This document shows, piece after piece, positions 522 to 63,948 of a stretch of DNA of 64,000 nucleotides. Each line of letters starts with the position of its first letter. Positions within the stretch are counted from its first letter, which is position 1. The notes under the pieces are model-generated. The model was given only the letters and a program-made list of their open reading frames with translations. It was not told the origin of the DNA and did no database searches. This DNA is from an uncultured beta proteobacterium (GTDB lineage: Bacteria > Pseudomonadota > Gammaproteobacteria > Burkholderiales > Rhodocyclaceae). Location of the stretch: positions 1 through 64,000 of the forward strand of contig CAIVQO010000090.1 in assembly GCA_903908065.1 (NCBI GenBank). Reading direction: 5' to 3'. A program made the position numbers and the translations under genes.

Positions 522-1157
522 TCAGGCTTTCTCGATTACCAGCAAATGGCGTTGCGCATTCAGTCCGGGAACCCGCAAGGGCAGCGCCTCATGCAGGGAC
601 CAGCCGTCGGGCAGGTGCTTGATTTCCTCGTCGGGCATGACGCCCTTCATGGCATACAGGCGGCCGGACGGCGCCAGCAAATGGCCGGCAAGATGCACAA
701 AATCGGATAGCGCGGCAAAAGCGCGCGAGACCACGGCATCGAAACCGCCAGCAGGCATGTCCTCGACACGCCTGTTCTCGACCGCAAGATTGTCCAGTCC
801 CAACTCGATCTTCGCCTGGCGCTGAAACGCCGCCTTCTTTTCCACGGTTTCAATCGATGTCAGCTTGAGTTCGGGACAGGCAAGCGCCAGAGGTATGCCC
901 GGCAGCCCCGCTCCGCTGCCGACATCGGCCCAGCGCCGTCCCGCCAGCGCCGACTCTCCGAGGGCCGGCAGCAGCGACAGCGAATCCAGCAGATGGTGGG
1001 TCAGCATTTCCTTCTCGTCACGGATTGCGGTCAGGTTGTACGTGCGGTTCCATTTCTTCAGTAAGCCGATGAAATCCAGCAATTTCGCCTGCCGCGCCTC
1101 CGGCAAGTCAATCCCCATGGCGGCGAGCGCGCCGCGCAGTTCCACCGCGAGCGTCAT
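522..1157 (-). CDS. rsmG: 16S rRNA (guanine527-N7)-methyltransferase RsmG
   Basis: RsmG (GidB) methylates G527 of 16S rRNA using S-adenosylmethionine. The 211-residue length is normal. The SAM-binding loop [14 protein letters not shown] lies near residues 97-110, after the characteristic [11 protein letters not shown] and [10 protein letters not shown] segments. The start ATG overlaps the mnmG stop by four bases and the stop is one base from parA, so the three genes form one unit. The variable stretch ESALAGRR just before the SAM motif is encoded by a copy of the dispersed 24-bp repeat (934-957). Confidence 0.96.
934..957 (-). repeat. dispersed 24-bp repeat, copy 1 (inside rsmG)
   Basis: Matches the window consensus (AAAGTCGGCGCTGGCGG, two variable bases, CGGCG) at all but one defined position. 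It is read in frame as ESALAGRR in the variable stretch before the RsmG SAM loop. Confidence 0.7.
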
Positions 1158-3031
1158 GCCGCCTTGCGCCGTTTCAGGAAAACCAGCAGCAGCGATATCG
1201 CCGCCGGCGTTACGCCCTGCACCCGCGACGCCTGGCCGAGGGTTTGCGGGCGGGCCTGGCTCAGTTTCTGGCGAACCTCGAAGGACAGGCCGCGTACCTC
1301 GTTGTAGTCGATGTCGTCCGGCAGGGCCATCGATTCGTGCGCCAGGCTCTTGTCGATCTCGTCTTGCTGGCGTTCGATGTAGCCCTGGTATTTAGCCTGG
1401 ATCTCGACCTGCTCGATGACCTCGGCTTCGCCCAACGGGCTTCCCGCACCGGGCAGGGTCAGCAGGCTGGCGTAGCTGACTTGCGGCCGGCGCAGCAGGT
1501 CGAACAGCCGGTACTCGCGCTCCATCGGTTGACCCAGCACGCGCAGTGCATCGGCCTCCGGCAACTGTCGCGGATTGACCCAGGTCGACTTGAGGCGCTC
1601 GGCTTCGCGCGCCACGGCGTCGCGTTTGCGGTTGAAGGCATCCCAACGGTGGTCGTCTACCAGGCCCAACTCGCGGCCGATCTCGGTCAGGCGCAGATCG
1701 GCATTGTCCTCGCGCAGCGACAACCGGTACTCGGCGCGACTGGTAAACATCCGGTAGGGCTCGGAGACGCCGCGCGTAATCAGGTCATCGACCAGCACAC
1801 CCAAGTAGGCCTGGTCGCGCCGCGGCGACCACGGGGCCTGTTGCTGCGCCAGGCGTGCGGCGTTGATTCCCGCCAGCAAGCCCTGGGCGGCGGCTTCCTC
1901 GTAGCCGGTGGTGCCGTTGATCTGGCCGGCGAAAAAGAGTCCGTCGATCGACTTGGTTTCCAGGCTTGCCTTCAGGTTGCGCGGATCGAAATAGTCGTAC
2001 TCGATGGCGTAGCCGGGACGGGTGATATGGACGTTCTCCAAGCCACGGATCGAACGCACCAGTGCCAGTTGCACATCGAAGGGCAGGCTGGTGGACACGC
2101 CTTGCGGATACACCTCGTGGGTCGTCAGGCCTTCGGGTTCGAGGAAGATCTGGTGGCTGTCCTTGCCGGCAAAGCGATGGATCTTGTCTTCGATCGACGG
2201 ACAGTAGCGCGGGCCGACACCTTCGATCACGCCGGTAAACATGGGCGAACGGTCCAGCCCGGAACGGATGATCTCGTGGGTCCGCGCATTGGTATGGGTA
2301 ATCCAGCAGGGCACCTGGCGCGGGTGTTGGTCGCGGCGACCGATGAAGGAAAACACCGGCTCCGGCGTATCGCCGGGCTGAACCTGGATTTGTGAATAGT
2401 CGATGCTGCGGCCATCAAGCCGCGGCGGCGTCCCGGTCTTGAGTCGACCGACCGGGAGATTGATTTCCTTCAGTCTCTGCGCTAGCGAGATCGCGGCGGG
2501 GTCGCCGAATCGGCCGGCGCGGTAGTTCTCCAGCCCGACATGCACCAGACCATTGAGGAAGGTTCCGGCAGTAAGCACCACCGCCGGTGCCTCGAAGCGC
2601 AGCCCGAGCTGGCTGACCACGCCAACGACCCGATCGTCATTCAGGATCAGGTCATCCGCCGCCTGCTGGAAGATGCTCAGGTTCGGCTGGTTTTCGAGCA
2701 CTTGGCGAATCGCCTGGCGATACAACTGGCGATCGGCCTGGGCCCGCGTTGCCCGTACTGCCGGACCCTTGGAAGCGTTCAGGGTACGAAACTGGATCCC
2801 GGCGGCGTCGGTGGCCAGTGCCATCGCCCCGCCCAGGGCATCGACTTCCTTCACCAGGTGACCCTTGCCGATGCCACCGATGGACGGGTTGCAGGACATC
2901 GCACCCAGGGTTTCGATGTTATGGGTCAACAGCAGGGTGCGGGCTCCGGCGCGTGCAGCGGCCAGACAAGCCTCGGTGCCGGCATGGCCACCACCAATCA
3001 CGATCACGTCGAAGGAAGCCGGAAACTGCAC
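1154..3031 (-). CDS. mnmG: tRNA U34 carboxymethylaminomethyl synthase subunit MnmG (GidA)
   Basis: FAD-dependent MnmG works with MnmE (7693-9033) to make cmnm5U34 in tRNAs. The dinucleotide-binding motif [14 protein letters not shown] is right at the N terminus. [23 protein letters not shown] and the [10 protein letters not shown] region are family hallmarks. I chose GTG 3031 because it gives [11 protein letters not shown], aligning residue for residue with the usual MFYPDPFD-VI start. An ATG at 3064 has a better Shine-Dalgarno (GAGAGG) but lies inside a terminator stem and would add 11 atypical residues. Product is 625 aa, overlapping rsmG by four bases. Confidence 0.93.
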
Positions 3032-3045
3032 GCGGATGCCCAAAC

Positions 3046-3072
3046 AAAAAAGAGGCGCAATCATACGCCTCT
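3046..3072 (-). terminator. rho-independent terminator between livF and mnmG
   Basis: Read on the minus strand, AGAGGCG, an 8-base loop, CGCCTCT and then TTTTTT. The 7-bp stem is perfect (3051-3057 with 3066-3072). It would stop transcripts coming from the liv operon before mnmG. Confidence 0.7.
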
Positions 3073-3129
3073 CGCCAACCCCGCGCAGCAGCTTTAGCTT
3101 TTACGACTCAGATCCAGCCCCGAGACCGG

Positions 3130-3145
3130 TGTTTCACGTGAAACA
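3130..3145. other. parS: parS site 1 (ParB-binding centromere)
   Basis: Perfect 16-bp palindrome TGTTTCACGTGAAACA, the widely conserved bacterial parS sequence. It sits in the livF-mnmG gap, 2.6 kb from parA and about 10 kb from the putative oriC. Confidence 0.96.
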
Positions 3146-3153: not shown

Positions 3154-3169
3154 AGTTTCACGTGAAACA
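3154..3169. other. parS: parS site 2
   Basis: AGTTTCACGTGAAACA, identical to parS except for the first base, 24 bp centre to centre from site 1. The pair gives two ParB nucleation sites on nearly the same face of the helix; the second is three bases from the livF stop. Confidence 0.92.
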
Positions 3170-3171
3170 AA

Positions 3172-3915
3172 TCAGTGCTTGCCGCCTAGGCCAAGATACG
3201 ACTGAACCACTTTTGGATCGTCGATCAAATCCCGGCACGAACCCTCGAGCGCCACCTCACCAGTCTCCAAAACGTAGCCGTAGTCGGCTATCTGAAGCGC
3301 GGCACGTGCATTCTGCTCAACCAGGAGGATGGAAACTCCCATGTCCTTAAGCGTTGCCACGACGCGGAAGATTTCCTTCACGATCAGCGGCGCCAATCCC
3401 AGACTCGGCTCGTCCAGCATCAACAAACGAGGCTTCGCCATCAGTGCGCGCGCCAGCGCAAGCATCTGACGCTCCCCGCCCGAAAGCGTGCCGGCATGCT
3501 GATCGCGCCTTTCCTTGAGGCGGGGAAAGATGGTAAACACCTCTTCCATGGTTTGCTGTTGATCCCGGTCGCCGCCACGATAGCGATGAAAGCAACCCAG
3601 CAGCAAATTGTCCTCAACGCTCATCTCGCCGAACAGGGCGCGGGACTCCGGTACCAGATTCACACCCAGCGCGACCATATCCTCGACTTCGGCATCGCCA
3701 AGATCAATTCCCCGGAAGCGAATCACTCCCTGGCTCCGGGGCAACAAGCCCATAACCGAGGAAAGCATGGTGGTCTTGCCGGCACCATTGGGACCGATCA
3801 CGGTGACGATCTGACCTTCCCCAACCCGGATTCCGACATGATGCAGCGCTTCGACCTTGCCGTAGGAAACACACAAGTCATCGACCTCGAGTATCGGCAT
3901 CCCGCTATCCATCAT
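3172..3915 (-). CDS. livF: branched-chain amino acid ABC transporter ATP-binding protein LivF
   Basis: Cytoplasmic ATPase subunit of a LIV-type importer. It has Walker A IGPNGAGKTTM near residue 40, the signature LSGGERQMLALARAL near 143, and Walker B LLMLDEPSLGLAP near 163. The 247-residue length is slightly above the usual 235 because of a short N-terminal extension; internal ATGs at residues 2 and 6 are alternative starts. Its ATG overlaps the stop of the upstream livM-livG fusion by four bases, indicating coupled translation. The product PxxLEVDDLCVSYG start is typical of LivF rather than LivG. Confidence 0.93.
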   Translation of the reverse strand: MMDSGMPILEVDDLCVSYGKVEALHHVGIRVGEGQIVTVIGPNGAGKTTMLSSVMGLLPRSQGVIRFRGIDLGDAEVEDMVALGVNLVPESRALFGEMSVEDNLLLGCFHRYRGGDRDQQQTMEEVFTIFPRLKERRDQHAGTLSGGERQMLALARALMAKPRLLMLDEPSLGLAPLIVKEIFRVVATLKDMGVSILLVEQNARAALQIADYGYVLETGEVALEGSCRDLIDDPKVVQSYLGLGGKH

Positions 3916-7692: not shown

Positions 7693-9033
7693 CTACTTGC
7701 CGATGCAGAAGCGGGAAAAAATTTCCCCCAGCAAATCGTCGGCCGTGAATTCGCCGGTAATGGTCGACAAGGCTTCCTGAGCCAGGCGTAGCTCCTCCGC
7801 ACAAAGCTCGATCTCGCCCAGTCGCCGTTCCGCCAGCGCCGACTTTTCACTTGCCAGGATCAACGCGGCGAGGTGGCGCTCCCGTGCCAGCACCGCGTCC
7901 TCACCCCGCCCCTGCCAGCCGGCCACGCGCAGGAGTTCGTCGTGCAGCAGTCCGATACCCGCTCCCGTCTTTGCCGACAGTCTCAGCCTGACGCAAGCCT
8001 CACTCGCTTCCCGGCCGGGCGCCAGGCCTGCAAGGTCGCATTTGTTCTCGATCACGATGCGAGCCACGCCCCTCGGCAGGCCGGCAGCAATCGCACGATC
8101 TTCGTCGGTTTCGCCATTGCGTGCATCGAGCAGCTGCAACACCACGTCGGCGCCCTCGATTTCGCGCCAGGCACGCTCGACGCCGATTTTCTCCACGACG
8201 TCGTCGGTATCGCGCAGACCGGCGGTATCGATCACATGCATCGGTATGCCTTCGACCTGGATCGCCTCGCGCAGCACGTCCCGCGTCGTGCCCGCCACCT
8301 CGGTAACGATCGCCCGGTCCTCGCCGGAAAGTCGGTTCAGCAGTGAAGACTTGCCGACATTGGGCAAGCCGGCCAACACCACATGCAGGCCGGAACGCAA
8401 CCTGCTGCCTGCGCGCGCACGCGCTATCAAGGCATCAAGCGCGGCACGCAAAGCGGCGAGCCGCGCCCCCACCTCGCCCTCGCGCAGGATGTCGATTTCT
8501 TCCTCGGGGAAATCCAAGGCCGCTTCGACGCGCATGCGCAGCTCGATCAGTCGCTCGACCAGCCCATGAACCTCGCGCGAGAATTCTCCTGACAGCGAAC
8601 GCATCGCCGAACGGGCCGCGGCTGCAGTTTCGGCCTCGATCAGGTCGGCCACGGCCTCTGCCTGCACCAGGTCGATTTTGTCGTTCAGATAGGCACGCCG
8701 AGAAAATTCGCCCGGCTCGGCCAGTCGCGCGCCCAGCTCCAAGCAGCGCGCCAGCAGCATCTGCATTACCACGGGGCCGCCATGCCCCTGCAGTTCCAGC
8801 ACGTCCTCGCCGGTAAAGGAACCCGGCGCAGGAAAATACAGCAGCAGTCCACGATCCAGCACGGCACCGTCTGCCGCAAGGAAGCTCCTCAGAACCGCAC
8901 GCCTGGGCTCGACTTCCCTGCCGGTCAATTCCCGCGCGAGACCTTCCAGCCGCTCGCCCGACACTCGCACCACGCCGATACCCCCTCGCCCGGGAGGGGT
9001 CGCGATTGCCGCGATGGTATCGGAGCGAGCCAC
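7693..9033 (-). CDS. mnmE: tRNA modification GTPase MnmE
   Basis: GTPase partner of MnmG in U34 modification of tRNA. The N-terminal domain begins [20 protein letters not shown]. The G domain has G1 [10 protein letters not shown]2 AGTTRD, G3 DTAGLRD and G4 NKCD. It ends with the conserved FCIGK carrying the C-terminal cysteine. GTG 9033 is chosen because it matches the family start; an upstream GTG at 9069 overlaps yidC and adds 12 residues. Length 446 aa, close to the usual 450. A variable helical stretch KSALAERR in the C-terminal region is encoded by a copy of the dispersed repeat. Confidence 0.94.
7823..7846 (-). repeat. dispersed 24-bp repeat, copy 2 (inside mnmE)
   Basis: Perfect match to the window consensus at every defined position. 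It is read in the same frame as copy 1 and encodes KSALAERR in the variable part of MnmE between the G domain and the conserved C terminus. Confidence 0.75.
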
Positions 9034-9055
9034 CCCCGGCCCGAGGAACCGCCGG

Positions 9056-10699
9056 CTACTTGCCCTCACCCGCCTCGATCAGGCGGGTGATCTGCCATTG
9101 CTGCGCAATCGACAGGATGTTGTTAACCGTCCAGTAAAGGACCAGACCCGCCGGGAACCAAAGGAACATGAAGGTGAATATGATCGGCATCATCAACATC
9201 ACCTTGGCCTGGATCGGATCCGGCGGCGTTGGATTGAGCTTGGTCTGGATGAACATGGTGGCACCCATGATCAGCGGCAGCACGTAGTAGGGATCCTTGA
9301 CCGACAGATCGGTGATCCAGCCCAGCCAGGGCGCATTGCGCATTTCGACCGTGCCCAGCAAAACCCAGTAGAGCGCGATGAACACCGGAATCTGCACCAG
9401 AACCGGCAAGCAGCCACCGAGCGGATTGACTTTCTCCCGCTTGTAGAGCGCCATCATCTCCTGATTCAGGCGCTGCTTGTCATCGCCATAGGTCTCCTTG
9501 AGCTTCATTAGCTTGGGCGTCAGCACGCGCATCTTGGCCATCGACTTGTAGCTGGCCGCCGAGAGCGGAAAGAATGCGAGCTTGAGCAGGACGGTCAGAC
9601 CGATGATGGCCCAACCCCAGTTACCGACCAGCTTGTGGATAGCACCCAGCACCCAGAACAGGGGCGCAGCAATCACGGTCAGCCAGCCATAGTCCACCAC
9701 CAGGTCGAGGCCCGGGGCTATCTTTTCCAGCTTGTCCTGTTCCTGTGGACCGGCATACAGCGTGATCGTGCTCTTGCCATCGGCCGCAACCGGCAGGATC
9801 ACCCCTGCCGAGTACATATCTTCACCGACCTTGCGCATATAGAACTCGCGCGACAAACCGGGTGCCGGCAACCAGGCCGATACGAAATAGTGCTGCACCA
9901 TGGCCAGCCAACCGTTATCCGCCTTGGTGGAAAACTTGGCCTTGCCCTTCTGGATGTCGGTGAACTCCACCTTCTGGAACTTCTCGGCATCGGTGTAAAC
10001 CGCAGGCCCGGTAAAAGTGACCACACCCATCATCATCGAGTTGCTCTGCCCGTCGGCCGGTTTGCCGTCACGGGTGATCTGGTAATAGGCGTGGGTGCCG
10101 GATTTGGCGCCTTCGTGCAAAACCTCGATCTGGTAACTGCCGCGACGGAAAATATAGGTCTTGCTTAGCTTCGAGCCGTCCGCCGCCATGGCCTCAAGGC
10201 GCATCTCAAGCTTGTCCTCTCCATCCTTGAGATTCAGTTCGCCCGGTGCCAGCTTCCATTCGCTCTTGTGATTGGGCAAGCCCTCACCGATAACCCCGGA
10301 TTGCGCCTGATACACGTGTTTGCCACCGTTGTCGAACAAGACAAAATTCTTGGTCTTGTCCTCGGTGTCCCCGTGCTTTAGCAACTCTAGGCGAACAATG
10401 TCACCTCCCTGCGAAGATATCTCTGCCTGATAGAGGTCGGTACGCAGCTTGGCAATCGCCCCCGCGGACTGTACCGGGGTGTTCGCGACCGGCACCACCG
10501 GTGTGCCGGCATTCGTCGTCGGTGTCGGCACGGCGCCCGCCGCAGCCGGTGCTCCACCAGCCACCGCTGCCGGAGCGGAATTGGTCGCGGAAGCTACTGC
10601 CGGTGCTTTGGGCATATTCTGCCGCTGCCATGCATCCCAAAGCATGATCAGCGAAAAGCTGAACACCAGAAGCAACATCAATCGTCGGTTATCCATCAC
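9056..10699 (-). CDS. yidC: membrane protein insertase YidC
   Basis: Inner-membrane insertase acting alone or with SecYEG. The 547-residue protein starts with an N-terminal membrane anchor ([19 protein letters not shown]), then an Ala/Pro-rich linker and a large periplasmic domain (about residues 80-340). The conserved five-helix core follows, with [40 protein letters not shown] and the terminal [14 protein letters not shown]. This is a typical proteobacterial YidC1-type length. It lies in the classic order rpmH-rnpA-yidD-yidC-mnmE. The 88-bp gap to yidD shows no clear terminator. Confidence 0.97.
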
Positions 10700-10787
10700 T
10701 GTCTCGGCAGAGGATTTTTGTTATCGGGCTTTGAAGTCAAACTGGGCAAACAACTTGCCACAGTCAGGAAAAGGAAGGGACCATATT

Positions 10788-11009
10788 TTAGGGAACTGGA
10801 TCATACCCGCCCGGATGCCATGGGTGACAGCGGCCAACGCGGCGCATACCAAGCCACAGCCCACGCATCGGACCATGTTTTTCCAATGCCTCCATTGCGT
10901 ACTCCGAGCAGCTGGGGAAGAACCGGCACCGATTGCCAAGCATCGGACTGATTGCCAGCTGATAGGCACGAATCAACCAGATCAGCGGTCGTGCAAGGAC
11001 CGACTTCAT
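10788..11009 (-). CDS. yidD: membrane protein insertion efficiency factor YidD
   Basis: Small membrane-associated protein (73 aa) thought to assist YidC-dependent insertion. It has the family motif [20 protein letters not shown] followed by CSEYAMEAL and HPWHPGG near the C terminus. I start it at ATG 11009 ([16 protein letters not shown]), which overlaps the rnpA stop as ATGA; the frame stays open further upstream but that would lie within rnpA. Translational coupling with rnpA and proximity to yidC fit the known cluster. Confidence 0.94.
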
Positions 11010-11413
11010 GAACCACGCGTCCCGAGGCGCCGCAACAGCGCCTCGATTTCTCCGCGCCACAACCTACATTGCCCATCGAACCCGGCAGGCGCTTTATCTA
11101 CTCGACGCTTCAATCGGACGACCACGTCGCAGGGCCTCAAGGGCAATTGACGGAAGGCCTCGCGACCCTGACGCTTTATGGCATTGCGCAAACTTGCGGC
11201 TTGCGCCAGACGCTTGGGTACCACCAATCCCAAGCGTGGCAGCAACAGACCTTCCTTTTCGAGGAAGTGGAGGTCAAAGGTTTCACCCCTCACCACTTTG
11301 CGCGCGGAAAGTACTGCGGCAAATTCCTGCGGCTTATGAAGCCGCTGACCCTTTTGAAACCGGAGGCCAGAATCAGACGCCGAGGCGATGGCGACCCTTG
11401 GCGCGACGCGCAC
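11006..11413 (-). CDS. rnpA: ribonuclease P protein component
   Basis: Protein subunit of RNase P, which matures tRNA 5' ends. The family core is clear: [12 protein letters not shown] at the start, then RLGLVVPKR and [12 protein letters not shown] (the RNR-like RNA-binding motif). The only canonical start codon between the upstream in-frame TGA and the conserved core is GTG 11413. It lies inside rpmH, so the two genes overlap out of frame by 41 bases and RnpA gains about 17 leading residues (135 aa in all). Initiation at a non-canonical codon after rpmH cannot be excluded. It overlaps yidD as ATGA. Confidence 0.9.
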
Positions 11414-11507
11414 GAATCACAGCACGACCGCCACGGGTACGCATGCGTACGAGAAATCCGTGGGTGCGCTTGCGGCGCACGACCGAAGGCTGATAAGTAC
11501 GTTTCAT
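11373..11507 (-). CDS. rpmH: 50S ribosomal protein L34
   Basis: L34, 44 residues, highly basic. It reads [20 protein letters not shown] at the start and AKGRHRLGV at the end, the standard sequence. It is the first gene of the rpmH-rnpA-yidD-yidC-mnmE series and diverges from dnaA. A strong sigma-70 promoter lies 31-60 bases upstream (11539-11567). Its last 41 bases overlap the only canonical rnpA start. Confidence 0.97.
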
Positions 11508-11538
11508 GACAATTCCCCTGCTTCAAGAAAAACCGCAG

Positions 11539-11567
11539 ATTACAACCGGTTACGGCTATTTTGTCAA
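11539..11567 (-). promoter_or_regulatory. sigma-70 promoter of rpmH operon
   Basis: On the minus strand TTGACA (11567-11562), a 17-base spacer, then TGTAAT (11544-11539). The -35 is a perfect consensus and the -10 is one mismatch away, about 30 bases from the rpmH ATG. Confidence 0.8.
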
Positions 11568-11585
11568 GATTGTCGCCCTTTTGGC

Positions 11586-11594
11586 TGTGGATAA
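11586..11594 (-). promoter_or_regulatory. DnaA box upstream of dnaA
   Basis: TGTGGATAA on the plus strand (TTATCCACA on the minus), a perfect DnaA box. It lies 107 bases before the dnaA start in the rpmH-dnaA gap, next to a TAGAAT (11611-11616) that could be a dnaA -10, so it suggests autoregulation. Confidence 0.7.
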
Positions 11595-11700
11595 CTTTTC
11601 GGTGACGCGATAGAATCTTTTCCTTGACGAGCAAGACCACCGACAAAAACGGTAGCCTAAAAACCGTTAACGCTTCCAATAATTCCTTTGCCAATTGCAC

Positions 11701-13059: not shown

Positions 13060-13268
13060 GTTGTGGAAAAGTTGCCGGCAGAACCGCGTGAACAATTGTG
13101 GATAACTAGGACCTACCCATCCGAAGCGAGGAATCATCCAACTTCATCCACAACCAGGAACGACTTTCATCCACGTGCTTATCCACTGTACAATTAGCTG
13201 TATTTAATAAAGATTTAGGTGTTTTCCACAAGCAAGAGCTTCCCTTATTAATCATAAGGCTTTTATAT
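13060..13268. other. oriC: putative replication origin (oriC) in dnaA-dnaN gap
   Basis: This 209-bp gap holds a perfect DnaA box TGTGGATAA (13097-13105). Close variants are TTATCCACT (13179-13187), TCATCCACA (13144-13152), TCATCCACG (13167-13175), TTTTCCACA (13222-13230) and TGTGGAAAA (13062-13070). Two AT-rich stretches (about 13191-13220 and 13240-13268) could serve as the unwinding element. The position between dnaA and dnaN with parAB/parS nearby supports oriC. Some of the boxes could instead regulate dnaN. Confidence 0.75.
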
Positions 13269-14372: not shown

Positions 14373-16850
<2,478 letters not shown>

Positions 16851-16929
16851 AGGGCTGACCCTACATCGGTCACCGGGAGGGCGCTAGGATGCGCCCATTC
16901 CTCCTCCTCTGATCCTTTGGATTGGATTC

Positions 16930-16958: not shown

Positions 16959-17016
16959 GGCATCGTGCGCCTGATCGAGGCCTGACACCGGGAATGGCGC
17001 AGCGCAGCAATAAATA

Positions 17017-19964: not shown

Positions 19965-19988
19965 CGCCGTGGGACCAGCGCCGACTTT
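19965..19988 (-). repeat. dispersed 24-bp repeat, copy 3 (intergenic)
   Basis: Matches 20 of 23 defined consensus positions. It lies between the histidine phosphatase stop and the terC promoter, ending six bases before the -35 element. Confidence 0.65.
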
Positions 19989-24049: not shown

Positions 24050-26695
24050 ATGCGCACCGAAACCCCGCAAGCCATTTACCTCAAGGACTACACCGCGCCG
24101 GCATGGTGGGTCGACACGGTCGACCTGCATGTCGCGCTCCACGACGACCACGCCGAAGTCAGGGCGAGCCTTGCCTGCCGGCGCAATCCCGCGAATTCGC
24201 AGCCCGACCTGGTGCTCGACGGCGAAGAACTGACGCTGCTGGAAGTCGGCGCTGACGGTACGGCGATCGCTCCGTCTCGCTACACCGTCGGCGACGAAAC
24301 CCTGATCCTGCACGGGCCCCTGCCCGACAGCTTCATGCTGGAAACCCGGGTGCGCATCGAGCCCGACCGGAACACCCAGCTTTCCGGCCTTTACAAATCC
24401 AAGGACGGCTATTTCACGCAGTGCGAAGCACAGGGCTTCCGCCGCATCAGCTTTTTTCCCGACCGGCCCGACGTCATGTCGCGCTATACCTGCACCATTG
24501 AAGCCGATAGGGCACGCTTCCCGCAGCTGCTGTCGAACGGCAATCCGGTTGCCGCGGGCGAGCTCGAAGGGGGTCGCCATTGGGCAAAGTGGGAAGATCC
24601 CTTCGCCAAGCCCTGCTACCTGTTTGCCCTGGTTGCCGCGAAACTGGACGTGCTGGAAGACGAATTCCTCACCCGATCCGGCCGCCGCGTGCGTTGTGCG
24701 GTCTACGTCGAACCCGGCAAGCTCGACCAGTGCGGCCACGCCATGGCGGCACTGAAGAAATCCATGGCCTGGGACGAGCAGCGCTTCGGCCTGGAGATGG
24801 ACCTCGACCACTACATGATCGTTGCCGTAGGCGACTTCAACATGGGGGCGATGGAGAACAAGGGCCTCAACATCTTCAACACCAAGTACGTGCTGGCCCG
24901 CCCCGACACCGCCACCGACACCGACTACCAGGGCATCGACCGCGTCGTCGCCCACGAGTACTTCCACAACTGGACCGGCAACCGCGTCACCTGCCGCGAC
25001 TGGTTCCAGCTGTCCCTGAAGGAAGGTCTCACCGTCTATCGCGACCAGGAGTTCGGCGAGGACCTGCACTCGCGCGCAGTGACGCGGATCCAGGAAGTGC
25101 GCACCCTGCGCGTCGCCCAGTTCCCCGAGGATGCCGGGCCGATGGCGCACCCGATCCGGCCGGCGTCGTATGCCGAGATCAACAACTTCTACACCGCCAC
25201 GGTGTACGAAAAAGGCGCCCAGGTCATCCGCATGATCGAGACCCTGATCGGCCGCGACAACTTCCGCAAGGGTATGGACCTCTACTTCGCCCGCCACGAC
25301 GGCCAGGCAGTGACCTGCGAGGATTTCGTGCAGGCGATGCAGGATGCGTCGGGCGTCAACCTCACGCAGTTCCGCCGCTGGTATGCACGGGCCGGAACGC
25401 CGCGGCTGAAGGCCGAGGGCGTGTATGACACGGCCGCCAAACGCTACACGCTGACGCTGACGCAGTCGCTGGCACCGACGGCTTATGAAGCACGATTGCG
25501 TGCCGCCGGCATCGCCCCCGAAGATGGCCCGCTGCACATCCCGGTAGCCGTCGGCCTGGTGCTGCCCGACGGCAGCGATGCTTTTCCGACGCGCGTGCTG
25601 TCGCTCACCGATACTTCGCAGACCTTCGCCTTCGATGGCATCCCGGCGGTGCCCGTGGCGTCGTTGTTGCGCGGCTTCTCTGCCCCGGTGCATCTCGACT
25701 TCGACCAGTCCGATGCCGAGCTGGCCCACCTCATGGCCCGCGATTCGGATCCCTTCAACCGCTGGGAAGCCGGGCAGCGCCTGGCCACCCGCGTGTTGCT
25801 GGCGGGCATTGCCGCAGGCGGCCACGGCGATACCTGGATCCCGACCAGCCTGGTCGAGGCCTTCCGCCGCGTGCTGGCCGATGGGCAACGCGACCCTGCC
25901 TTCGCTGCCGAGGCCTTGGCCCTGCCCGCTGAACAGGTGCTGGCCGAAGAAGTCGTCGCCACGGGTGGCATCATCGATCCCGAAGCCATCCATTTGGCAC
26001 GCCTCAACCTGCGTCGCCACCTTGCGGCGGAGTTGCACACCGAGTTCGAATCCACCTGGCAGGCCCTCTCGCCTGGCGAACCCTACGCGCCCGACGGCGC
26101 CCAGGTCGGCCGCCGCGCCCTGCGCAATGCCTGCCTTGCCTTCCTCGCCGATGCCGAAGCGGCCGCCGTGCTGCCGCGCCTGCTGGCCCAGTTGCACGAA
26201 GGCGGCAACATGACCGACGTGATCGCCGCGCTCGGCATTCTGGCCAACCAGGAGCTGCCCGAGCGCGAAGAAGCCCTGGGTGCCTTTTATGCAAAATGGA
26301 AGGACGAGGCACTGGTGGTCGACAAGTGGCTCTCGGTGCAATCCACCTCGCGCCTGCCCGGCACCGGGGCGCGGGTACGCGCACTGATGCAGCACCCGGC
26401 CTTTGACCTGAAGAACCCGAACAAGGTGTATGCCCTGGTGCGTGCCTTTTGCGGCGCCAATCCGCGCCACTTCCACGCCCTGGACGGCAGCGGCTACCAG
26501 TTCGCCGCCGACGTCATCATCGAGCTGCAGGCGATGAATCCGCAGGTGGCTTCGCGCATTGCCCGCAGCTTCGATCGCTGGCGCCAGTTCGATACCGTTC
26601 GCCAGGGCCACGCACGTGCCGCCCTGGAGCGCATCCAGGCGTGTGCAGGCCTGGCCAAGGATGTCGCCGAAGTGGTCGGCAATGCGCTGAAGTGA
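24050..26695 (+). CDS. pepN: aminopeptidase N (M1 zinc metallopeptidase)
   Basis: Cytosolic M1 aminopeptidase removing N-terminal residues from peptides. It is 881 aa, close to the usual 870-880. The exopeptidase motif GAMENKGLNIF is near residue 263, and the zinc site HEYFHNWTGNR with downstream KEGLTVYRDQEF supplies the HExxH-x18-E ligands. ATG 24050 (MRTETPQAIYLKDYTAP) matches the family start; the open frame upstream is not part of the protein. A copy of the dispersed repeat encodes EVGADGTA in the first beta domain. Confidence 0.97.
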   Translation: MRTETPQAIYLKDYTAPAWWVDTVDLHVALHDDHAEVRASLACRRNPANSQPDLVLDGEELTLLEVGADGTAIAPSRYTVGDETLILHGPLPDSFMLETRVRIEPDRNTQLSGLYKSKDGYFTQCEAQGFRRISFFPDRPDVMSRYTCTIEADRARFPQLLSNGNPVAAGELEGGRHWAKWEDPFAKPCYLFALVAAKLDVLEDEFLTRSGRRVRCAVYVEPGKLDQCGHAMAALKKSMAWDEQRFGLEMDLDHYMIVAVGDFNMGAMENKGLNIFNTKYVLARPDTATDTDYQGIDRVVAHEYFHNWTGNRVTCRDWFQLSLKEGLTVYRDQEFGEDLHSRAVTRIQEVRTLRVAQFPEDAGPMAHPIRPASYAEINNFYTATVYEKGAQVIRMIETLIGRDNFRKGMDLYFARHDGQAVTCEDFVQAMQDASGVNLTQFRRWYARAGTPRLKAEGVYDTAAKRYTLTLTQSLAPTAYEARLRAAGIAPEDGPLHIPVAVGLVLPDGSDAFPTRVLSLTDTSQTFAFDGIPAVPVASLLRGFSAPVHLDFDQSDAELAHLMARDSDPFNRWEAGQRLATRVLLAGIAAGGHGDTWIPTSLVEAFRRVLADGQRDPAFAAEALALPAEQVLAEEVVATGGIIDPEAIHLARLNLRRHLAAELHTEFESTWQALSPGEPYAPDGAQVGRRALRNACLAFLADAEAAAVLPRLLAQLHEGGNMTDVIAALGILANQELPEREEALGAFYAKWKDEALVVDKWLSVQSTSRLPGTGARVRALMQHPAFDLKNPNKVYALVRAFCGANPRHFHALDGSGYQFAADVIIELQAMNPQVASRIARSFDRWRQFDTVRQGHARAALERIQACAGLAKDVAEVVGNALK
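24242..24265 (+). repeat. dispersed 24-bp repeat, copy 4 (inside pepN)
   Basis: Matches 21 of 23 defined consensus positions and encodes EVGADGTA in the N-terminal beta domain of PepN, a loop region that varies in the family. Confidence 0.6.
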
Positions 26696-30374: not shown

Positions 30375-30398
30375 AAAGTCGGCGCTGGCGGGGCGGCG
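30375..30398 (+). repeat. dispersed 24-bp repeat, copy 5 (intergenic)
   Basis: Matches the consensus with at most one difference (GGCGGCG end). It ends nine bases from the mltA stop codon, in the gap between amtB and mltA. Confidence 0.75.
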
Positions 30399-32606: not shown

Positions 32607-33547
32607 AGCTCACCGAAGTCGCAGCCGCCGTCATCGAACGGCGCGCGGCGGATGGCGCCATGGAATTCCTGCTCGGTCAGCGCGCGCCGGGCACCTTCTA
32701 CCCCGGTTACTGGGAATTCCCCGGCGGCAAGGTGGAGCCCGGCGAGACGCCGCATGCCGCGCTGGTGCGCGAGCTGGGCGAGGAACTTGGCATCGGCGCG
32801 ACCCGCGCCGACCCCTGGCTGCGGCGCGAACACGTGTATGAGCACGCCCATGTGCGGCTGAACTTCTTTCGTGTGCGCGACTGGTGCGGCGAGCTGCACG
32901 ACCATGTGCATAGCGCCCTGGCCTGGCAACGCGCCGATGCGCTGACGGTGTCGCCGATGCTGCCGGCCAACGCGCCGGTGCTGGAGGCGCTGGCGCTGCC
33001 GGATTTCTATGCCATCAGCCACGCTGGCGAAATCGGCATCGACGCCCAGCTGCTGGCCCTGGCCCGGGCGCTCGACGCCGGCCTGCGTCTGGTGCAGCTG
33101 CGCGAGCCGGCGCTGGATGGCGCACGCCGTGCCGCCTTTGTCCATGCCGCCGTGGACCTGTGCCACCAATACGGTGCACGCGTGTTGGTCAATGGCGATA
33201 CCGGCCTGGCGGAGGCCGCCGGCGCCGATGGCGTGCATCTGCCTGCGCGCGATCTCGCGGCGCTGGAACGGCGGCCGGACTTTCCGCTGGTCGCGGTGTC
33301 CTGCCACCAGGCGGCGGAGCTGGACCACGCGGCGTCCCTGGGTTGCGATTTCGCGGTGTTCGGTCCGGTGCGGCCGACGGCCAGCCATCCCGGCGCGCCC
33401 GGCATCGGCTGGGACGCATTGGCCGCCGTGCTCGCCGTGCCGCCGCTGCCGACTTTTGCCCTCGGCGGGCTGGCGCGTGCCGACCTCGATGCCGCCCAGC
33501 GCGCCGGTGCCCACGGCATTGCCGCGATCCGCGCTGCCTGGGACTAA
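32603..33547 (+). CDS. Nudix hydrolase fused to thiamine-phosphate-synthase-like domain
   Basis: 314 aa. Residues 1-130 are a MutT-type Nudix domain with the box GGKVEPGETPHAALVRELGE-ELGI; related proteins clean up 8-oxo-dGTP. Residues about 135-314 are a ThiE-like TIM barrel: VQLREPALD, VLVNGDTGLAEAAGADGVHL, FAVFGPVRPTASHPGAPGIG and FALGGL. The same fusion is found in many gamma- and betaproteobacteria, where its thiamine role is unproven. A dispersed repeat copy encodes AVPPLPTF in front of the last strand. It overlaps DUF815 by four bases and converges on yacG with four bases between. Confidence 0.92.
   Translation: MKLTEVAAAVIERRAADGAMEFLLGQRAPGTFYPGYWEFPGGKVEPGETPHAALVRELGEELGIGATRADPWLRREHVYEHAHVRLNFFRVRDWCGELHDHVHSALAWQRADALTVSPMLPANAPVLEALALPDFYAISHAGEIGIDAQLLALARALDAGLRLVQLREPALDGARRAAFVHAAVDLCHQYGARVLVNGDTGLAEAAGADGVHLPARDLAALERRPDFPLVAVSCHQAAELDHAASLGCDFAVFGPVRPTASHPGAPGIGWDALAAVLAVPPLPTFALGGLARADLDAAQRAGAHGIAAIRAAWD
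33433..33456 (-). repeat. dispersed 24-bp repeat, copy 6 (inside Nudix-ThiE gene)
   Basis: Matches 20 of 23 defined consensus positions on the minus strand. The plus strand reads AVPPLPTF in the ThiE-like domain just before the FALGGL strand. Confidence 0.55.
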
Positions 33548-34558: not shown

Positions 34559-35158
34559 TCACCCCGCCAATGCCAAATAACTGGCATGCAGGCGTTCGAT
34601 TTGCGGCTCCAGGTCGGCGAGACTTCGATCGTTGTCGATCACGTCGTCGGCAGCCTCCAGGCGCTGCGCGCGCGTGGCCTGGGCGGCAAGGATGCGCTCG
34701 ACCTCGGCGCGCGTCAGGCCGTTGCGTTGCATGACGCGGGCAATTTGCGTTTCCACGTCGCAGTCGACCACCGCGACGCGATTCACCCGCTCGCGGTAGC
34801 TGCCGGACTCAATCAGCAGCGGCACCATGAGAATTGCATAGGAAGAGTCGGCGCCGGCAAGACGGCGTTCGCTCTCTTCGCGAATCATCGGATGCAGGAT
34901 GCCCTCCAGGCGCTTGCGCGCCGGCGGGTCGGCAAACACGATGGCGCGCATCGCGGCGCGATCCAGCGCACCGTCCGGTGTGGCAACGGCATCGCCGAAG
35001 GCGGCGCGGATCGCCGGCATCGCAGCCCCGCCGGGGGTGGTCAGCTGGTGCGCGATGGCGTCGGTGTCGATCACGGCGATGCCCTGCTCTTCGAACAGCC
35101 GGCCGACCGCGCTCTTGCCGCTGCCGATGCCACCGGTGAGACCGATCACGAAGCTCAT
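34559..35158 (-). CDS. coaE: dephospho-CoA kinase
   Basis: Last enzyme of CoA synthesis: phosphorylates dephospho-CoA. It is 199 aa with the P-loop GLTGGIGSGKSAV at residues 7-19, the VIDTDAIAHQLT segment and ILHPMIREE. The stretch RRLAGADS before the MVPLLIESG strand is encoded by a dispersed repeat copy and lies where the family varies. The start overlaps the upstream SPOR-protein stop by four bases. Confidence 0.96.
   Translation of the reverse strand: MSFVIGLTGGIGSGKSAVGRLFEEQGIAVIDTDAIAHQLTTPGGAAMPAIRAAFGDAVATPDGALDRAAMRAIVFADPPARKRLEGILHPMIREESERRLAGADSSYAILMVPLLIESGSYRERVNRVAVVDCDVETQIARVMQRNGLTRAEVERILAAQATRAQRLEAADDVIDNDRSLADLEPQIERLHASYLALAG
34844..34867 (+). repeat. dispersed 24-bp repeat, copy 7 (inside coaE)
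   Basis: Matches about 19-20 of 23 defined consensus positions. Read on the gene strand it gives RRLAGADS in a variable helix-loop of CoaE. Confidence 0.55.
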
Positions 35159-35811
35159 CGCGGGCAGTCCGTCAGGGCGGCGTCGGCATGCGGCGCGATC
35201 AGCTTCGGCAACTGCTGCAACAGGCTTGCCGCGACACCGCGCAGTTCGACGCGGGCCTTGGCCGGCGGCTGGTCGCGGGCGTCGACGCGGGCGGACTTGA
35301 TTCCGCGTTTATTGAGTCCGAGGAGGAACTCGCGCGCCGCCGGTTCGGTGGGGAAGCGCCCGAGCACGATCTCCTGCCGCCCGCCGTCGAGCGCCACGGT
35401 TTCCTGTTGTTCCACGCTGAAGCGCTTGAGTTCGGCCGCCTTCTTTTCCGCTGCGGCGAGGTTGGGCAGATCGGCGATCACCACCAGATAGAGCGCCGGG
35501 TCCACCTGGGGCATCAATTGCGCCTCGAAGCCGGCCGCCTGTGTCGCCGCTTTCAGGGCTTCCGCATCAATCATGGCAAGGCCGCCGACGATGCGGCAGG
35601 CGATTTCACCGCTGCTGCCGGAAGTCGGCGCGGGCGCCACGGCGCTTGCCGTCCCGTTTGCGGCGATGACCCGCAGCTTCTCGGGTTGCAGTTGCTGCGC
35701 CAGTCGGTCCGGTTCGCGGTTGGGGTCGCCGCCACCGAAGTAACCCTGGCCCCAGGCAAAGAACACCAGGTTGATGAAGATCAGCAGGAAAAAGCTAGCT
35801 CGCAGGGCCAT
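35155..35811 (-). CDS. SPOR-domain membrane protein
   Basis: 218 aa with an N-terminal membrane anchor (SFFLLIFINLVFFAWGQGY), a Pro/Ala/Ser linker (about residues 55-70), and SPOR-like repeats: AGFEAQLMPQVDPALYLVVI and EIVLGRFPTEPAAREFLLGL, each with the expected hydrophobic pattern. SPOR domains bind denuded peptidoglycan at septa. It is translationally coupled to coaE and next to zapD, so a septal role is plausible. The linker AVAPAPTS is encoded by a dispersed repeat copy. Confidence 0.8.
   Translation of the reverse strand: MALRASFFLLIFINLVFFAWGQGYFGGGDPNREPDRLAQQLQPEKLRVIAANGTASAVAPAPTSGSSGEIACRIVGGLAMIDAEALKAATQAAGFEAQLMPQVDPALYLVVIADLPNLAAAEKKAAELKRFSVEQQETVALDGGRQEIVLGRFPTEPAAREFLLGLNKRGIKSARVDARDQPPAKARVELRGVAASLLQQLPKLIAPHADAALTDCPR
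35621..35644 (+). repeat. dispersed 24-bp repeat, copy 8 (inside SPOR-protein gene)
   Basis: Matches 21 of 23 defined consensus positions. On the gene strand it encodes AVAPAPTS in the linker between the membrane anchor and the SPOR-like part. Confidence 0.65.
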
Positions 35812-41453: not shown

Positions 41454-42488
41454 TCAGCCGAGCTTCTTCAGCAGCTCTGCCTTTTTCGCGTTGAACTCGG
41501 CTTGCGAGAGGATGCCCTTGGCCACCAGGCCGTGCAGCTTCTCCAGCGTGGCGACGACATCGTCGGCCGACACCGGTGCAGAAGTCGGCGCTGGCGGTGC
41601 GGCGTTCTGCGGCGCGGCGAGCGGGTTCAGCGCGCCGGCCATGGCGCCAGCGACCTGCTGACCAAGACCGAGCCCGACGCCAAGGCCGGCGCCGATCCCG
41701 GCCAGCCCGCCCTCATTCTGTGCCGCCAGCGGGATCGCCTCGGCGGTCTGGAACTGGGTGTAGGCCTGCATGCCGCCCATCATGTTCACGCCGATGCGCT
41801 TGTCGAGCATGGCCTGCAATTCTTCGGGCAGCGAAATGTTCTGCACGTTGAGGCTGTCGAGCGCCAGGCCGTACTGCTGGAACATCGGATCGAGCTTGGC
41901 CTTGAGCGCTCTGCCGAACTCTTCCTGGTTGCCCGCCATGTCGATGAAGGGCACGCCCGATTCGCCGAAGATGTCGGAGATATGGCCGACGATGGTGTTG
42001 CGCAGCTGGCCTTCGAGCTGCTCGGACGTGAAGCGCTCCAGCGTGCCCGAGAGCGTGCCATGGAAGGCCTTGGGGTCTGTCAGGTGGAAGGCATAGATGC
42101 CGAAGGCGCGCAGCCTCACCATGCCGAAATCCTTGTCGCGGATGGTGACCGGATTCGGCGTGCCCCACTTGCGGTCGATCTTCTGCCGCGTGCTGAAGAA
42201 ATACACGTCGGACTTGAAGGGCGACTCGAACAGCTTGTCCCAGTTCTTCAGGTAGGTCAGCACCGGCAGGGTCTGGGTGGTCAGCTTGTACATGCCGGGG
42301 CCGAAAATGTCGGCCACCACGCCCTCGTTGATGAACACCGCCATCTGCGATTCGCGCACCGTCAGGCTGGCGCCGTTCTGGATTTCCATCTCGGCCATGG
42401 GGAAGCGCCAGGCCATGGTCTCGCCGTCATCCTCGGTCCATTGGATGATGTCGATGAACTGTTTCTTGATGAAGTCCATGAGTGCCAT
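41454..42488 (-). CDS. SPFH/Band-7-type protein with SHOCT C terminus
   Basis: 344 aa. Residues about 20-230 form an SPFH domain of the virion-core-protein-like group (SQMAVFINEGVVADIFGPGM, VNIRDKDFG-like TIRDKDFGMVRLRAFG). A glycine-rich region (GLAGIGAGLGVGLGLGQ) and a Pro/Ala linker AAPPAPTS come next. The end is a SHOCT motif GILSQAEFNAKKAELL. There is no N-terminal membrane helix, so association with membranes would be peripheral or oligomeric. It sits 24 bases after DUF350 in the same unit; the linker is encoded by a dispersed repeat copy. Confidence 0.87.
   Translation of the reverse strand: MALMDFIKKQFIDIIQWTEDDGETMAWRFPMAEMEIQNGASLTVRESQMAVFINEGVVADIFGPGMYKLTTQTLPVLTYLKNWDKLFESPFKSDVYFFSTRQKIDRKWGTPNPVTIRDKDFGMVRLRAFGIYAFHLTDPKAFHGTLSGTLERFTSEQLEGQLRNTIVGHISDIFGESGVPFIDMAGNQEEFGRALKAKLDPMFQQYGLALDSLNVQNISLPEELQAMLDKRIGVNMMGGMQAYTQFQTAEAIPLAAQNEGGLAGIGAGLGVGLGLGQQVAGAMAGALNPLAAPQNAAPPAPTSAPVSADDVVATLEKLHGLVAKGILSQAEFNAKKAELLKKLG
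41581..41604 (+). repeat. dispersed 24-bp repeat, copy 9 (inside SPFH gene)
   Basis: Matches the consensus at all but one or two defined positions. On the gene strand it encodes AAPPAPTS in the linker between the glycine-rich and SHOCT regions. Confidence 0.7.
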
Positions 42489-44868: not shown

Positions 44869-45497
44869 ATGATCAGGCAGGCCCGGCTGGCCGGTGGCGC
44901 GATGGTCTGCGGCATGGCGCTGGCGACACTGGCTGACCGGGTCGGTGCGGACGCCGAGGCTCCATTGGTCCGTGCGACGGAGCAGAAACTCGCTCTGGTG
45001 CTGGACCTGCACAAGGGCGAAGTGGGCCGCTGGCGCGAACTCCAGGCCGAGCGGCGCCCGAGTCGCATCGCCGAGCTTGCCGCCGCCTTTCGCCGCGACT
45101 TCCCGCAAAGTCCGCATCGCAAGGAGGCACAGGAGATGGAAGCCGGTGCCCTGCGCGCCGCCAAGCTCAAGCGGGAGGTCGGCTTGTCGGGCGAGTTCTT
45201 CGACATTGCCCATGGCGACGATGCCTTCGATGCATGGGGGCCGCGCGGGGCGATGCCGAGGCCGCCTACCGCGTGGCACGCGCCTACATCGAGGGCAGGT
45301 CGGGTGTCTTCGCCAGCCTCTACCGCCATGAACAATGGTTGCGTTTTGCCGGCGAACTCGGCCACGCGCGCGCCAGCTGGGAACTGGCGCAACTCCTCAA
45401 CACCCTTGGCCGCGTTGCAGAAGCCGCGCACTACGAGAAGCGCGCGATCGGCCTCGGCTACAAGCCGCCGCCGCGCCTGTCCACCCGCGATTATTGA
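44869..45497 (+). pseudogene. Sel1-repeat-like protein with apparent frameshift
   Basis: Two frames together make one protein. The first, from ATG 44869, has an N-terminal signal-like segment and a helical region up to DIAHGDDAFDAW. The second continues as GAARGDAEAAYRVARAYIEG...LGHARASWELAQLLNTLGRVAEAAHYEKRAIGLGY, a Sel1/TPR-type repeat pattern. The switch falls at a GGGGG run near 45236-45240; one additional G would join the frames as DAWGAARGDAEAAY. This is either a true disruption or a homopolymer sequencing error. The stop at 45497 abuts a dispersed repeat copy. Confidence 0.65.
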
Positions 45498-45520
45498 AAG
45501 TCGGCGCTGGCGGTACGGCG
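45497..45520 (+). repeat. dispersed 24-bp repeat, copy 10 (intergenic)
   Basis: Perfect match to the consensus at all defined positions. It fills almost the whole 27-bp gap between the convergent Sel1-like gene and coaX, its first base being the last base of the TGA stop. Confidence 0.8.
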
Positions 45521-54619: not shown

Positions 54620-54643
54620 CGGCGTCCCGCCGGTGCCGACTTT
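54620..54643 (-). repeat. dispersed 24-bp repeat, copy 11 (intergenic)
   Basis: Matches 20 of 23 defined consensus positions and lies in the 48-bp gap between nadA and the queuosine-precursor transporter, immediately before the latter's Shine-Dalgarno (GGGGAG). Confidence 0.65.
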
Positions 54644-62500: not shown

Positions 62501-62512
62501 GCGTGGTGAGCC

Positions 62513-63175
62513 TTAGCGGACGATGGCAACGCGCTTCTGCAACTGGCGTACGGCCAGCGAGAGGCTGAAGCAGATGGCGAAGTAGATCAGGGCCGAGAGC
62601 ACGATCATCTCGACCGGGCGATTGTAGTTTTTGCCCACCACGTCGGCCGCCTTGAGCAAGTCCTTGGCGCCGATGGCATACACCAGCGAGGTGTCCTGGA
62701 ACAGCACGATGCTTTGCGTCAGCAAGACCGGCAGCATGTTGCGCAGGGCCTGCGGCAGGACGACGTTGAGCATCGCCTGCGCCGGAGTCAGGCCCAGGGC
62801 CTGGGCTGCCCAGACCTGGCCGCGCGGCACGCTCTGGATTCCCGAACGCATGATCTCGCAATAGAAAGCGGCCTCGAAGGCGGTGAAGGTGATGATGGCC
62901 GAGGTTTCGGCGCCAACCGGCTTGCCGGTGAGGAAGGGAATCACCAGGAAGAACCAGAGGATCACCAGCACCAGCGGGATCGAGCGCATGGTGTCGACAT
63001 AGGCGCCTGCCGCCAGCGACAGGGGCTTGAACGGCGACAGCCGCGCCAGCGCCAGCAGGGTACCGATGACGATGCCGCCCGTCATCGCGATCAGGGTCAG
63101 GCGCAGGCTGAACAGCAGGCCGTCGCGGATGAACGGCAGGCTCGGGCCCCAGACGCTGAAGTCGAACTCGCCCAT
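62513..63175 (-). CDS. gltK: glutamate/aspartate ABC transporter permease GltK
   Basis: 220 aa His/Glu/Gln/Arg-type permease with about five helices. It has the EAA-loop GIQSVPRGQVWAAQALGLTP (20 residues) near residue 120, which contacts the ATPase, and the FRSIPL-like MRSIPLVLVILWFFLVIP. It ends 12 bases before gltL and begins two bases after gltJ ends. Confidence 0.93.
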   Translation of the reverse strand: MGEFDFSVWGPSLPFIRDGLLFSLRLTLIAMTGGIVIGTLLALARLSPFKPLSLAAGAYVDTMRSIPLVLVILWFFLVIPFLTGKPVGAETSAIITFTAFEAAFYCEIMRSGIQSVPRGQVWAAQALGLTPAQAMLNVVLPQALRNMLPVLLTQSIVLFQDTSLVYAIGAKDLLKAADVVGKNYNRPVEMIVLSALIYFAICFSLSLAVRQLQKRVAIVR

Positions 63176-63177
63176 CG

Positions 63178-63915
63178 CTACCCCGGCTTCGCGATCAGGC
63201 CGGGCACGCGCGAACGCGCCTCAATCCAGGCCATGCCGCGGTTGGCGGCAAAGGCGCAGATGAAATACAGCAGGGTCACGGCGAGGTAGGTTTCGATGCC
63301 CTGCTCCGAATCCTCCTGCATCTGCCGTGCCTGGAAGGTGAGCTCCATGACGCCGATGGCGAAGGCGATCGAGGAGTTCTTGAACACGTTCATGAATTCC
63401 GACGTCAGCGGCGGGATCACGATGCGCAGCGCCTGCGGCAGGATCACGTGGCGGTAGGCCTGCGGCAGCGTGAGCCCGAGCGCCAGCGCAGCGTCGCGCT
63501 GGCCGCGCGCCAGGCTGCCGACGCCGGCGCGCACCTGCTCGGCGACCCGCGCCGAGGTAAATAGGCCGAGGCACAACGCGGCGGTGACGAATTCCTTGGC
63601 CAGCATGTCCTGCTTGACCCACAGGCCCCAATCGGGCGGCAGCAACTCTGGCACGACGAAGAACCAGAGGAACATCTGCACCAGCAGCGGGATGTTGCGG
63701 AACAGCTCGACCCAGGTTGCGCCCAGCACCGCCAGGCCCTTGTGCGGCACGGTGCGCAGCGTGCCGACGGTGATCCCCAGCAGCAGCGCCAGCAACCAGG
63801 CGGCGAGCGACACGGCCAGGGTCCAGCCCAGGCCGGTGACGAGCCAATGCAGGTAGGTCTCCTCGCCGGCCTTGACCTGTTCGAGGAAGATGCCCCAGTT
63901 CCAGTGGTAGTCCAT
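63178..63915 (-). CDS. gltJ: glutamate/aspartate ABC transporter permease GltJ
   Basis: 245 aa permease beginning MDYHWNWGIFLEQVKAGEET, the typical GltJ start. It shows ELFRNIPLLVQMFLWFFVVP and the EAA-loop GVGSLARGQRDAALALGLTL (20 residues). A gltI binding-protein gene would be expected upstream beyond 64000. The upstream 85 bp contain a dispersed repeat copy and a GC-rich hairpin at 63976-63992. Confidence 0.93.
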   Translation of the reverse strand: MDYHWNWGIFLEQVKAGEETYLHWLVTGLGWTLAVSLAAWLLALLLGITVGTLRTVPHKGLAVLGATWVELFRNIPLLVQMFLWFFVVPELLPPDWGLWVKQDMLAKEFVTAALCLGLFTSARVAEQVRAGVGSLARGQRDAALALGLTLPQAYRHVILPQALRIVIPPLTSEFMNVFKNSSIAFAIGVMELTFQARQMQEDSEQGIETYLAVTLLYFICAFAANRGMAWIEARSRVPGLIAKPG

Positions 63916-63924
63916 GCGTCAAAT

Positions 63925-63948
63925 CGGCGTGGTACGGGCGCCGACTTT
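63925..63948 (-). repeat. dispersed 24-bp repeat, copy 12 (intergenic)
   Basis: Matches 17 of 23 defined consensus positions; the AAAGTCGGCGC part is intact and the second half diverged. It starts nine bases upstream of gltJ. Confidence 0.5.

Follow-up and report, generated by a model that had tools for sequence, protein, structure and literature searches.

Bacteria of the Neisseriaceae and Pasteurellaceae live mainly on mucosal surfaces. In the parts of the recent literature available to us, these two are described as the sole families known to recognize their own DNA by short motifs at uptake (PMC12616744, 2025; similarly PMC7811141), and such motifs are thought to accumulate through biased uptake plus recombination (PMC7811141). 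For the DNA uptake sequences (DUS) of the Neisseriaceae, the accessible sections report about 1900 copies in genomes of 2.2-2.3 Mb, dialects, and an abundance of inverted pairs in every DUS genome (PMC3630211), as well as copies that are themselves conserved, lie in permissive parts of the core genome and are absent from recently acquired genes (PMC2397512). Here, we describe a dispersed repeat in a window of 64,000 nucleotides (the whole stretch analyzed, positions 1 to 64,000 of contig CAIVQO010000090.1 from an uncultured beta proteobacterium) and in related genomes. The unit of ~25 bp, RAAGTCGGCGCTGGCG-NN-ACGGCGA, is present on both strands and probably serves a clade of the Rhodocyclaceae as a genome tag akin to uptake sequences, one that would have evolved independently and be kept by molecular drive. 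As far as the available text of PMC3630211 and PMC2397512 goes, it has in common with DUS its rank as top over-represented oligomer, its genic and intergenic copies, its clade dialects and its conserved copies in permissive core regions, but it is 25 bp rather than 10-12 bp long, unrelated in sequence, and bipartite with two free bases. With the uptake signal sequences (USS) of the Pasteurellaceae it shares an extended consensus and a genic share of about two thirds, and it may share an origin by substitution rather than insertion (PMC1626085, in the sections available), whereas Hin-USS, given as AAGTGCGGT in the accessible text of PMC12616744, has only the starting AAGT in common with it.

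The genome to which the window belongs (G000, a Sulfuritalea-like member of the Rhodocyclaceae, 3.84 Mb in 103 contigs) contains 508 copies and a single match of the reversed pattern, with balanced strands (239/269). All 31 genomes surveyed in the genus carry the motif, with 57 to 695 copies each (the lowest being G017 with 57, G021 with 157 and G025 with 214), and 30 other relatives have 0 to 6 copies each. Two wider surveys, both at up to two mismatches, covered 399 genomes of the order and 395 genomes from 68 genera of the family. Outside the family the maximum was five copies per genome; within it, six rich genera were found, in which 55 of 57 genomes have at least 250 copies (g1, 22/23; g32, 18/19; g36, 4/4; g215, 9/9; g166, 1/1; g192, 1/1). 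Two further genera contributed one genome with 77 and one with 42 copies, and every remaining genome of the family has at most 21. The exceptions inside the rich genera are G017 (g1), with 51 copies in this survey, and G655 (g32, 87% complete), with none. Among the 80 of at least 115 matches listed from a scan of GTDB for one exact version of the motif, the labels include Sulfuritalea, Rugosibacter, Rhodocyclaceae and Rhodocyclales, and some are broader or different (beta proteobacterium, Burkholderiaceae, Gammaproteobacteria bacterium). A rough single-gene tree of MnmE places the genus in one clade and g32 on a long branch. The motif differs in dialect between these two genera, ending in ACGGCA-C in G186 (g32) versus ACGGCG-A in G002 (g1); the ACGGCA ending also occurs in most copies of G061 among the matches listed.

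No 12-mer of the motif is over-represented in 282 kb of the low-copy genome G017. At five of its loci that align well to intact copies of the genus, 2 to 10 mismatches and no gaps were found, and its other matches are gapped or apparently unrelated. Two histories would give its low count: copies that decayed following a loss, or a lineage in which they never built up. The absence of copies from G655 may have arisen in the same two ways. The top over-represented 12-mer of G017 is instead CAGAGGCGCAGA (10 occurrences versus 0.06 expected), probably a tandem repeat. Four genomes outside the family have 4-5 copies at up to two mismatches, some of them clustered on one contig (G119:C34, G047:C29, G216:C5 and G338:C55), which perhaps represent DNA acquired horizontally from motif-bearing relatives. 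At least 120 viral-contig stretches in IMG/VR contain the exact motif; host contamination, prophage and phage carriage are all possible sources, and no inference is drawn from them.

The consensus of 86 copies in 400 kb of G002, a closed genus-mate genome, is R-A/R-A-GTCGGCGCTGGCG-NN-ACGGCG-A and has sharp edges. Such edges and so strong a consensus favor a mobile repeat, resembling Rickettsia palindromic elements (RPE), repetitive extragenic palindromic (REP) elements or miniature inverted-repeat transposable elements, that inserted itself into both genes and gaps and whose copies are now in decay; we consider this origin improbable. Tolerance is uneven along the unit, some positions being invariant in the 86 copies and others free or mostly purine, and this juxtaposition does not correspond to the uniform decay of inserted copies. 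RPEs are larger palindromic insertions. The motif resembles them as a dispersed in-frame repeat tolerated by proteins, but it is only 25 bp long and not palindromic, and it folds no better than shuffled sequences (z -0.5 and -0.6), so that the hairpin-forming palindrome of RPEs was not found in it. Copies with up to four mismatches carry ~34 bits of information, against 13.5 bits sufficient to mark 652 sites. This excess argues against a second alternative, in which a chromosomal protein present in this clade, with a part in nucleoid organization, segregation or repair, binds the motif and selection keeps the sites for that role, an explanation that we regard as rather unlikely. DUS and USS likewise carry excess information. 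The most over-represented 12-mer belongs to the motif in four of seven samples (G002, G022, G000 with G008, and G186), and AGTCGGCGCTGG ranks first among 12-mers in G002 and G022 and second in the other two.

Placement was determined for 87 copies (up to four mismatches) in 400 kb of G002 with a gene finder made for this analysis. Fifty-nine copies are genic, 25 are intergenic and three lie at gene edges, in DNA of which 87% of bases are coding; the genic share of 68% (59/87) compares with the 65% reported for H. influenzae USS in the accessible part of PMC1626085. The genic copies use five of the six reading frames unevenly (22, 19, 8, 7 and 3) and encode peptides that include KVGAGDTA, AVSPAPT, ESALAARR and RRVASADF. 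Copies are spaced more evenly than expected at random in both G002 (coefficient of variation 0.75 versus 0.99, p 0.0005) and G022 (0.69 versus 0.96, p 0.014), a regularity that favors the binding site of a chromosomal protein and counts against a mobile repeat. On the other hand, no clear strand bias was seen in the G002 stretches (37 plus and 45 minus copies over 0-0.4 Mb; 16 plus and 23 minus across five other stretches together), so that polarity of the kind known from Chi or FtsK-orienting polar sequences (KOPS) is not apparent, which speaks against the chromosomal protein. Among 4-kb windows, those of low GC have 0.31 copies per 10 kb versus 1.7-3.5 in those of higher GC, and windows below 60% GC contain two copies in 64 kb versus ~2 per 10 kb elsewhere. 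As the motif itself is GC-rich, this depletion may follow partly from composition.

Selection on these sites acts on DNA rather than on protein. When synonymous codons were shuffled in 400 kb of G002, 5.9 copies were left (maximum 11 in 30 runs) versus 55 real ones, and the same check on the window genes left a mean of 0.75 (maximum 3 in 100 runs) versus seven. Coding copies force rare codons that the genome avoids: codons used at 3-4% of their synonyms (ACT, GCT, CCA) account for 48 of 385 codons in them, and the codon-choice z is -6.6 in the motif versus -2.2 in the flanks. At third codon positions, identity between species of the genus is 0.84 in the motif versus 0.62 in the flank, with the motif higher at 41 of 48 sites (p 1e-7, a value that is too small, because one locus can enter from several query genomes and the sites are not fully independent). 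Across 55 sites, flank identity drops toward the motif, being 0.815 at a distance of 150-250 bp and 0.685 at 3-15 bp, and the motif itself has 0.822; a similar fall is reported for DUS in the available part of PMC2397512. In aligned sites, with the motif counted as kept at up to four mismatches, G002 copies are kept in G022 at 16 of 20 sites and G022 copies in G002 at 11 of 13; between G000 and G008 the figures are 5/7 and 6/7, and none of three G002 sites is kept in the motif-poor G424. Such DNA-level conservation at orthologous loci also favors a chromosomal binding site, and the excess over the flanks counts against a decaying mobile repeat.

The first-pass annotation had likened the repeat to a mobile element inserted into genes, a likeness that orthologue alignments do not bear out. 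At mnmE, the site has the same length in 24 of 24 rows of the genus and in six of seven motif-less relatives; the residues KSALA occur in 19 of the 24 rows and in g36, and other residues occupy the site in the motif-less relatives and in G021. As judged from these alignments, the mnmE motif arose without insertion, an outcome that goes against the first-pass annotation by the refuting test it had itself set. At rsmG, motif-less relatives are ~12 nt shorter rather than 24 among the matches listed, and one coding site of g32 is ~9 nt longer than in relatives in the same matches, in which no clean insertion of 24-25 nt was seen at coding sites. Thus, orthologues lacking exactly the inserted stretch, as expected of an RPE, were found neither at mnmE nor at rsmG. 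Fifteen of 20 G002-G022 site pairs have no indel inside the motif, and a gap test of the same kind showed that USS are not insertions, according to the accessible text of PMC1626085. The outgroup sites compared for the present motif are few. A mobile origin gains some support from intergenic copies of g32 and g36, where the relatives in some of the matches listed are ~20 nt shorter, in alignments that are ambiguous.

A mobile component is also suggested by a hairpin of 36 nt located in the middle of some copies. The G008 orthologues of two window copies, 24242 in pepN and 45497, are split by it (loci L317 and L318), and in pepN it adds 36 nt inside the gene. At up to three mismatches, 1-41 hairpins were counted in each of nine genus genomes, eight in G530 and one in G519, with none in 15 others. 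Between recognizable motif halves lie 28 of the 36 hairpins in the sequence examined (22 in one orientation, six in the other); three adjoin the right half only and five neither half. Changes in the outer stem preserve its pairing (TACCTG/CAGGTA, TGCCGG/CCGGCA), and the case for a hairpin rests on these paired variants, since in folding the 36 nt show no significant advantage over shuffled sequences (z -1.15 and -1.11). By eye, the stem has neither a GTAG tag nor the CGTC tag that the available part of PMC3733652 gives for some RPEs; no transposase search was made. We read the hairpin as a putative REP-like element, similar in size and paired outer stem to the REPs of the RAYT/TnpA-REP (REP-associated tyrosine transposase) systems, that would prefer the motif as landing site; the 25-mer itself differs from REPs in having no hairpin beyond chance and in being mostly genic. 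The position of the 28 hairpins would also suit the converse relationship, in which a 61-bp hairpin element came first and the 25-mer is what remains of it, empty or as a scar, once the 36-nt core has been lost. We judge this to be very improbable: each of the nine genus genomes has 1-41 hairpins, as opposed to 57 motif copies in G017 and 214-695 in the other eight, the tested motif-rich genomes of g32 (G186, G573), g166 and g192 have no hairpin at three mismatches, and mnmE shows no insertion. Chi, KOPS, HIP1, attC, terminators and REP were discarded as identities of the motif in view of the lack of clear polarity, of a hairpin beyond chance and of close pairing, with no dedicated search having been made for HIP1, attC and terminators.

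Uneven positional tolerance, orthologous conservation, genus-level dialect and even spacing together fit a recognized, drive-maintained sequence of the DUS or USS type better than decaying insertions. Further signatures shared with these systems are over-representation on both strands, restriction to a clade with one dialect seen, conserved copies in permissive flanks, and the presence of ComEC and type IV minor pilins in the hosts, which are equally present in motif-poor relatives: all 25 genomes compared, some of them motif-poor, have ComEC, and 24 of the 25 have FimT/GspH, the sole genome without it being the motif-rich G284. A pilin with the ComP_DUS domain (PF16732) looked promising in single proteins as a gene that tracks the motif and was rejected because all 25 genomes, including motif-poor ones, have it. 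Under the uptake-tag reading, a DNA receptor at the cell surface, probably located on the type IV pilus, would bind the 25-bp motif better than other DNA, and motif-bearing fragments from close relatives would be taken up and recombined more often. Recombination would then spread copies and repair them at homologous places by molecular drive, within a limit set by gene function, so that copies would settle in permissive stretches, both genic and intergenic.

Several observations weigh against this reading. No gene was found to track the motif when ComEC, GspH/FimT, ComP_DUS pilins and ComEA (the last by two hidden Markov models and one protein query) were compared across motif-rich and motif-poor genomes, a result that favors the chromosomal protein. 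In the low-copy G017, the ComEC frame is open over 808 aa. Canonical ComEA was recognized in only two of 22 motif-rich genomes (G484 and G563) in a search of 29 genomes that was not perfectly sensitive, since five genomes gave no match at all and one of these, G002, thereby missed even the common 800-aa helix-hairpin-helix protein. Most matches of TIGR00426 and PF12836 were frames of ~800 aa, which we take to be Tex-like proteins rather than ComEA, and G435 gave one weak match (E 0.09) in a frame of 133 aa. Distant pairs keep fewer sites (G008 in G002, 4/7; G008 in G022, 4/7; G002 in G284 of the motif-rich genus g36, 1/4), and core and accessory DNA contrast weakly (aligned DNA has 26 copies in 108 kb and unaligned DNA six in 42 kb, or 2.41 versus 1.43 per 10 kb, which are small numbers). 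The density of ~1.7 per 10 kb in G002 is well below that of DUS genomes and also lower than that of USS, for a motif that is longer than DUS, and inverted pairs like those of DUS were not found in 400 kb of G002, where the nearest two copies start 256 bp apart. We found no report of competence in Sulfuritalea (the "natural competence" of a paper mentioning both concerns Spirochaeta), nor any paper that describes uptake sequences for the Rhodocyclaceae, Sulfuritalea included, or contains the motif strings, among the papers listed by a literature search that lay outside most subscription papers. As no machinery gene tracks the motif and canonical ComEA was recognized in only two of 22 motif-rich genomes, we refrain from classifying it as a DUS or USS. 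The binding site of a chromosomal protein is in turn at odds with the few or absent copies in G017 and G655 inside otherwise rich genera, which suggest that its function would be dispensable. Taken in its fullest form, the uptake-tag reading would make the motif a third independent family of sequences for the uptake of self-DNA, carried by environmental Betaproteobacteria (the record labels of hosts name lakes and groundwater), with a 25-bp bipartite tag, genus dialects, a receptor that reads it, hosts mostly without recognizable ComEA and a REP-like hairpin landing in the two-base center; we hold this to be as plausible as its negation.

In the window itself, the 24-mer of the first-pass annotation has 10 copies at up to three mismatches versus 0.01 expected from 100 dinucleotide shuffles. 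That annotation gave the unit as ~24 bp and listed twelve copies; with the near-fixed A after the two variable bases and the preferred A after the last G, the unit comes to ~25 bp. Three copies, rather than the two it claimed, match at all fixed positions: 7823..7846 (minus strand) in mnmE, 30375..30398 (plus), which is intergenic and also present in G008 with indels around it, and 45497..45520 (plus), which is intergenic and adjoins the type III pantothenate kinase gene at 45525-46232. The copies at 934..957 (minus) in rsmG and 41581..41604 (plus) in the SPFH-domain gene have one mismatch each; the rsmG copy is recognizable, and partly degenerate, in six other genus genomes among the matches listed (G002, G008, G010, G018, G022 and G027). 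The pepN copy at 24242..24265 (plus) has two mismatches. Three mismatches are found in the intergenic copies at 19965..19988 and 54620..54643 (both minus), in the copy at 33433..33456 (minus) in the Nudix-ThiE gene, which is common to G008, G002 and G022, and in that at 35621..35644 (plus) in a 218-aa gene at 35155-35811, whose G008 version is better preserved. An eleventh copy, at 34844..34867 (plus) in coaE, has four mismatches and is kept in the nearest relative, G008; the twelfth, at 63925..63948 (minus), has six mismatches and no alignment to G008, and is not established above chance. The proposed division into five intergenic and seven genic copies was reproduced by the gene finder made for this analysis. 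Pfam supports the host names RsmG, MnmE, M1 aminopeptidase (PepN), Nudix-ThiE, CoaE and SPFH, and the gene at 35155-35811, formerly named SPOR, has no Pfam match at E 1e-4. The description as a dispersed, non-palindromic, protein-tolerated repeat is thus upheld, and no named family was found for the motif. A long stretch free of copies (up to four mismatches) at 7847-19964 includes positions 12001-16000, the 4 kb of lowest GC in the window (0.555). Between the open reading frames 1154-3064 and 3172-3915 lie two parS-like sites, at 3130-3145 and 3154-3169 (TGTTTCACGTGAAACA, with a mismatch in one of them), a placement expected near an origin.

If the tag marks a chromosomal protein instead, it would be a site of unknown function that is exceptional in length and abundance. 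If the uptake-tag reading is true, a third case in environmental Rhodocyclaceae would imply the repeated evolution of such tags away from animal hosts, and the family would offer a new system in which to study molecular drive, the receptor and the part played by ComEA, and in which the low-copy G017 and G655 would serve as natural controls.

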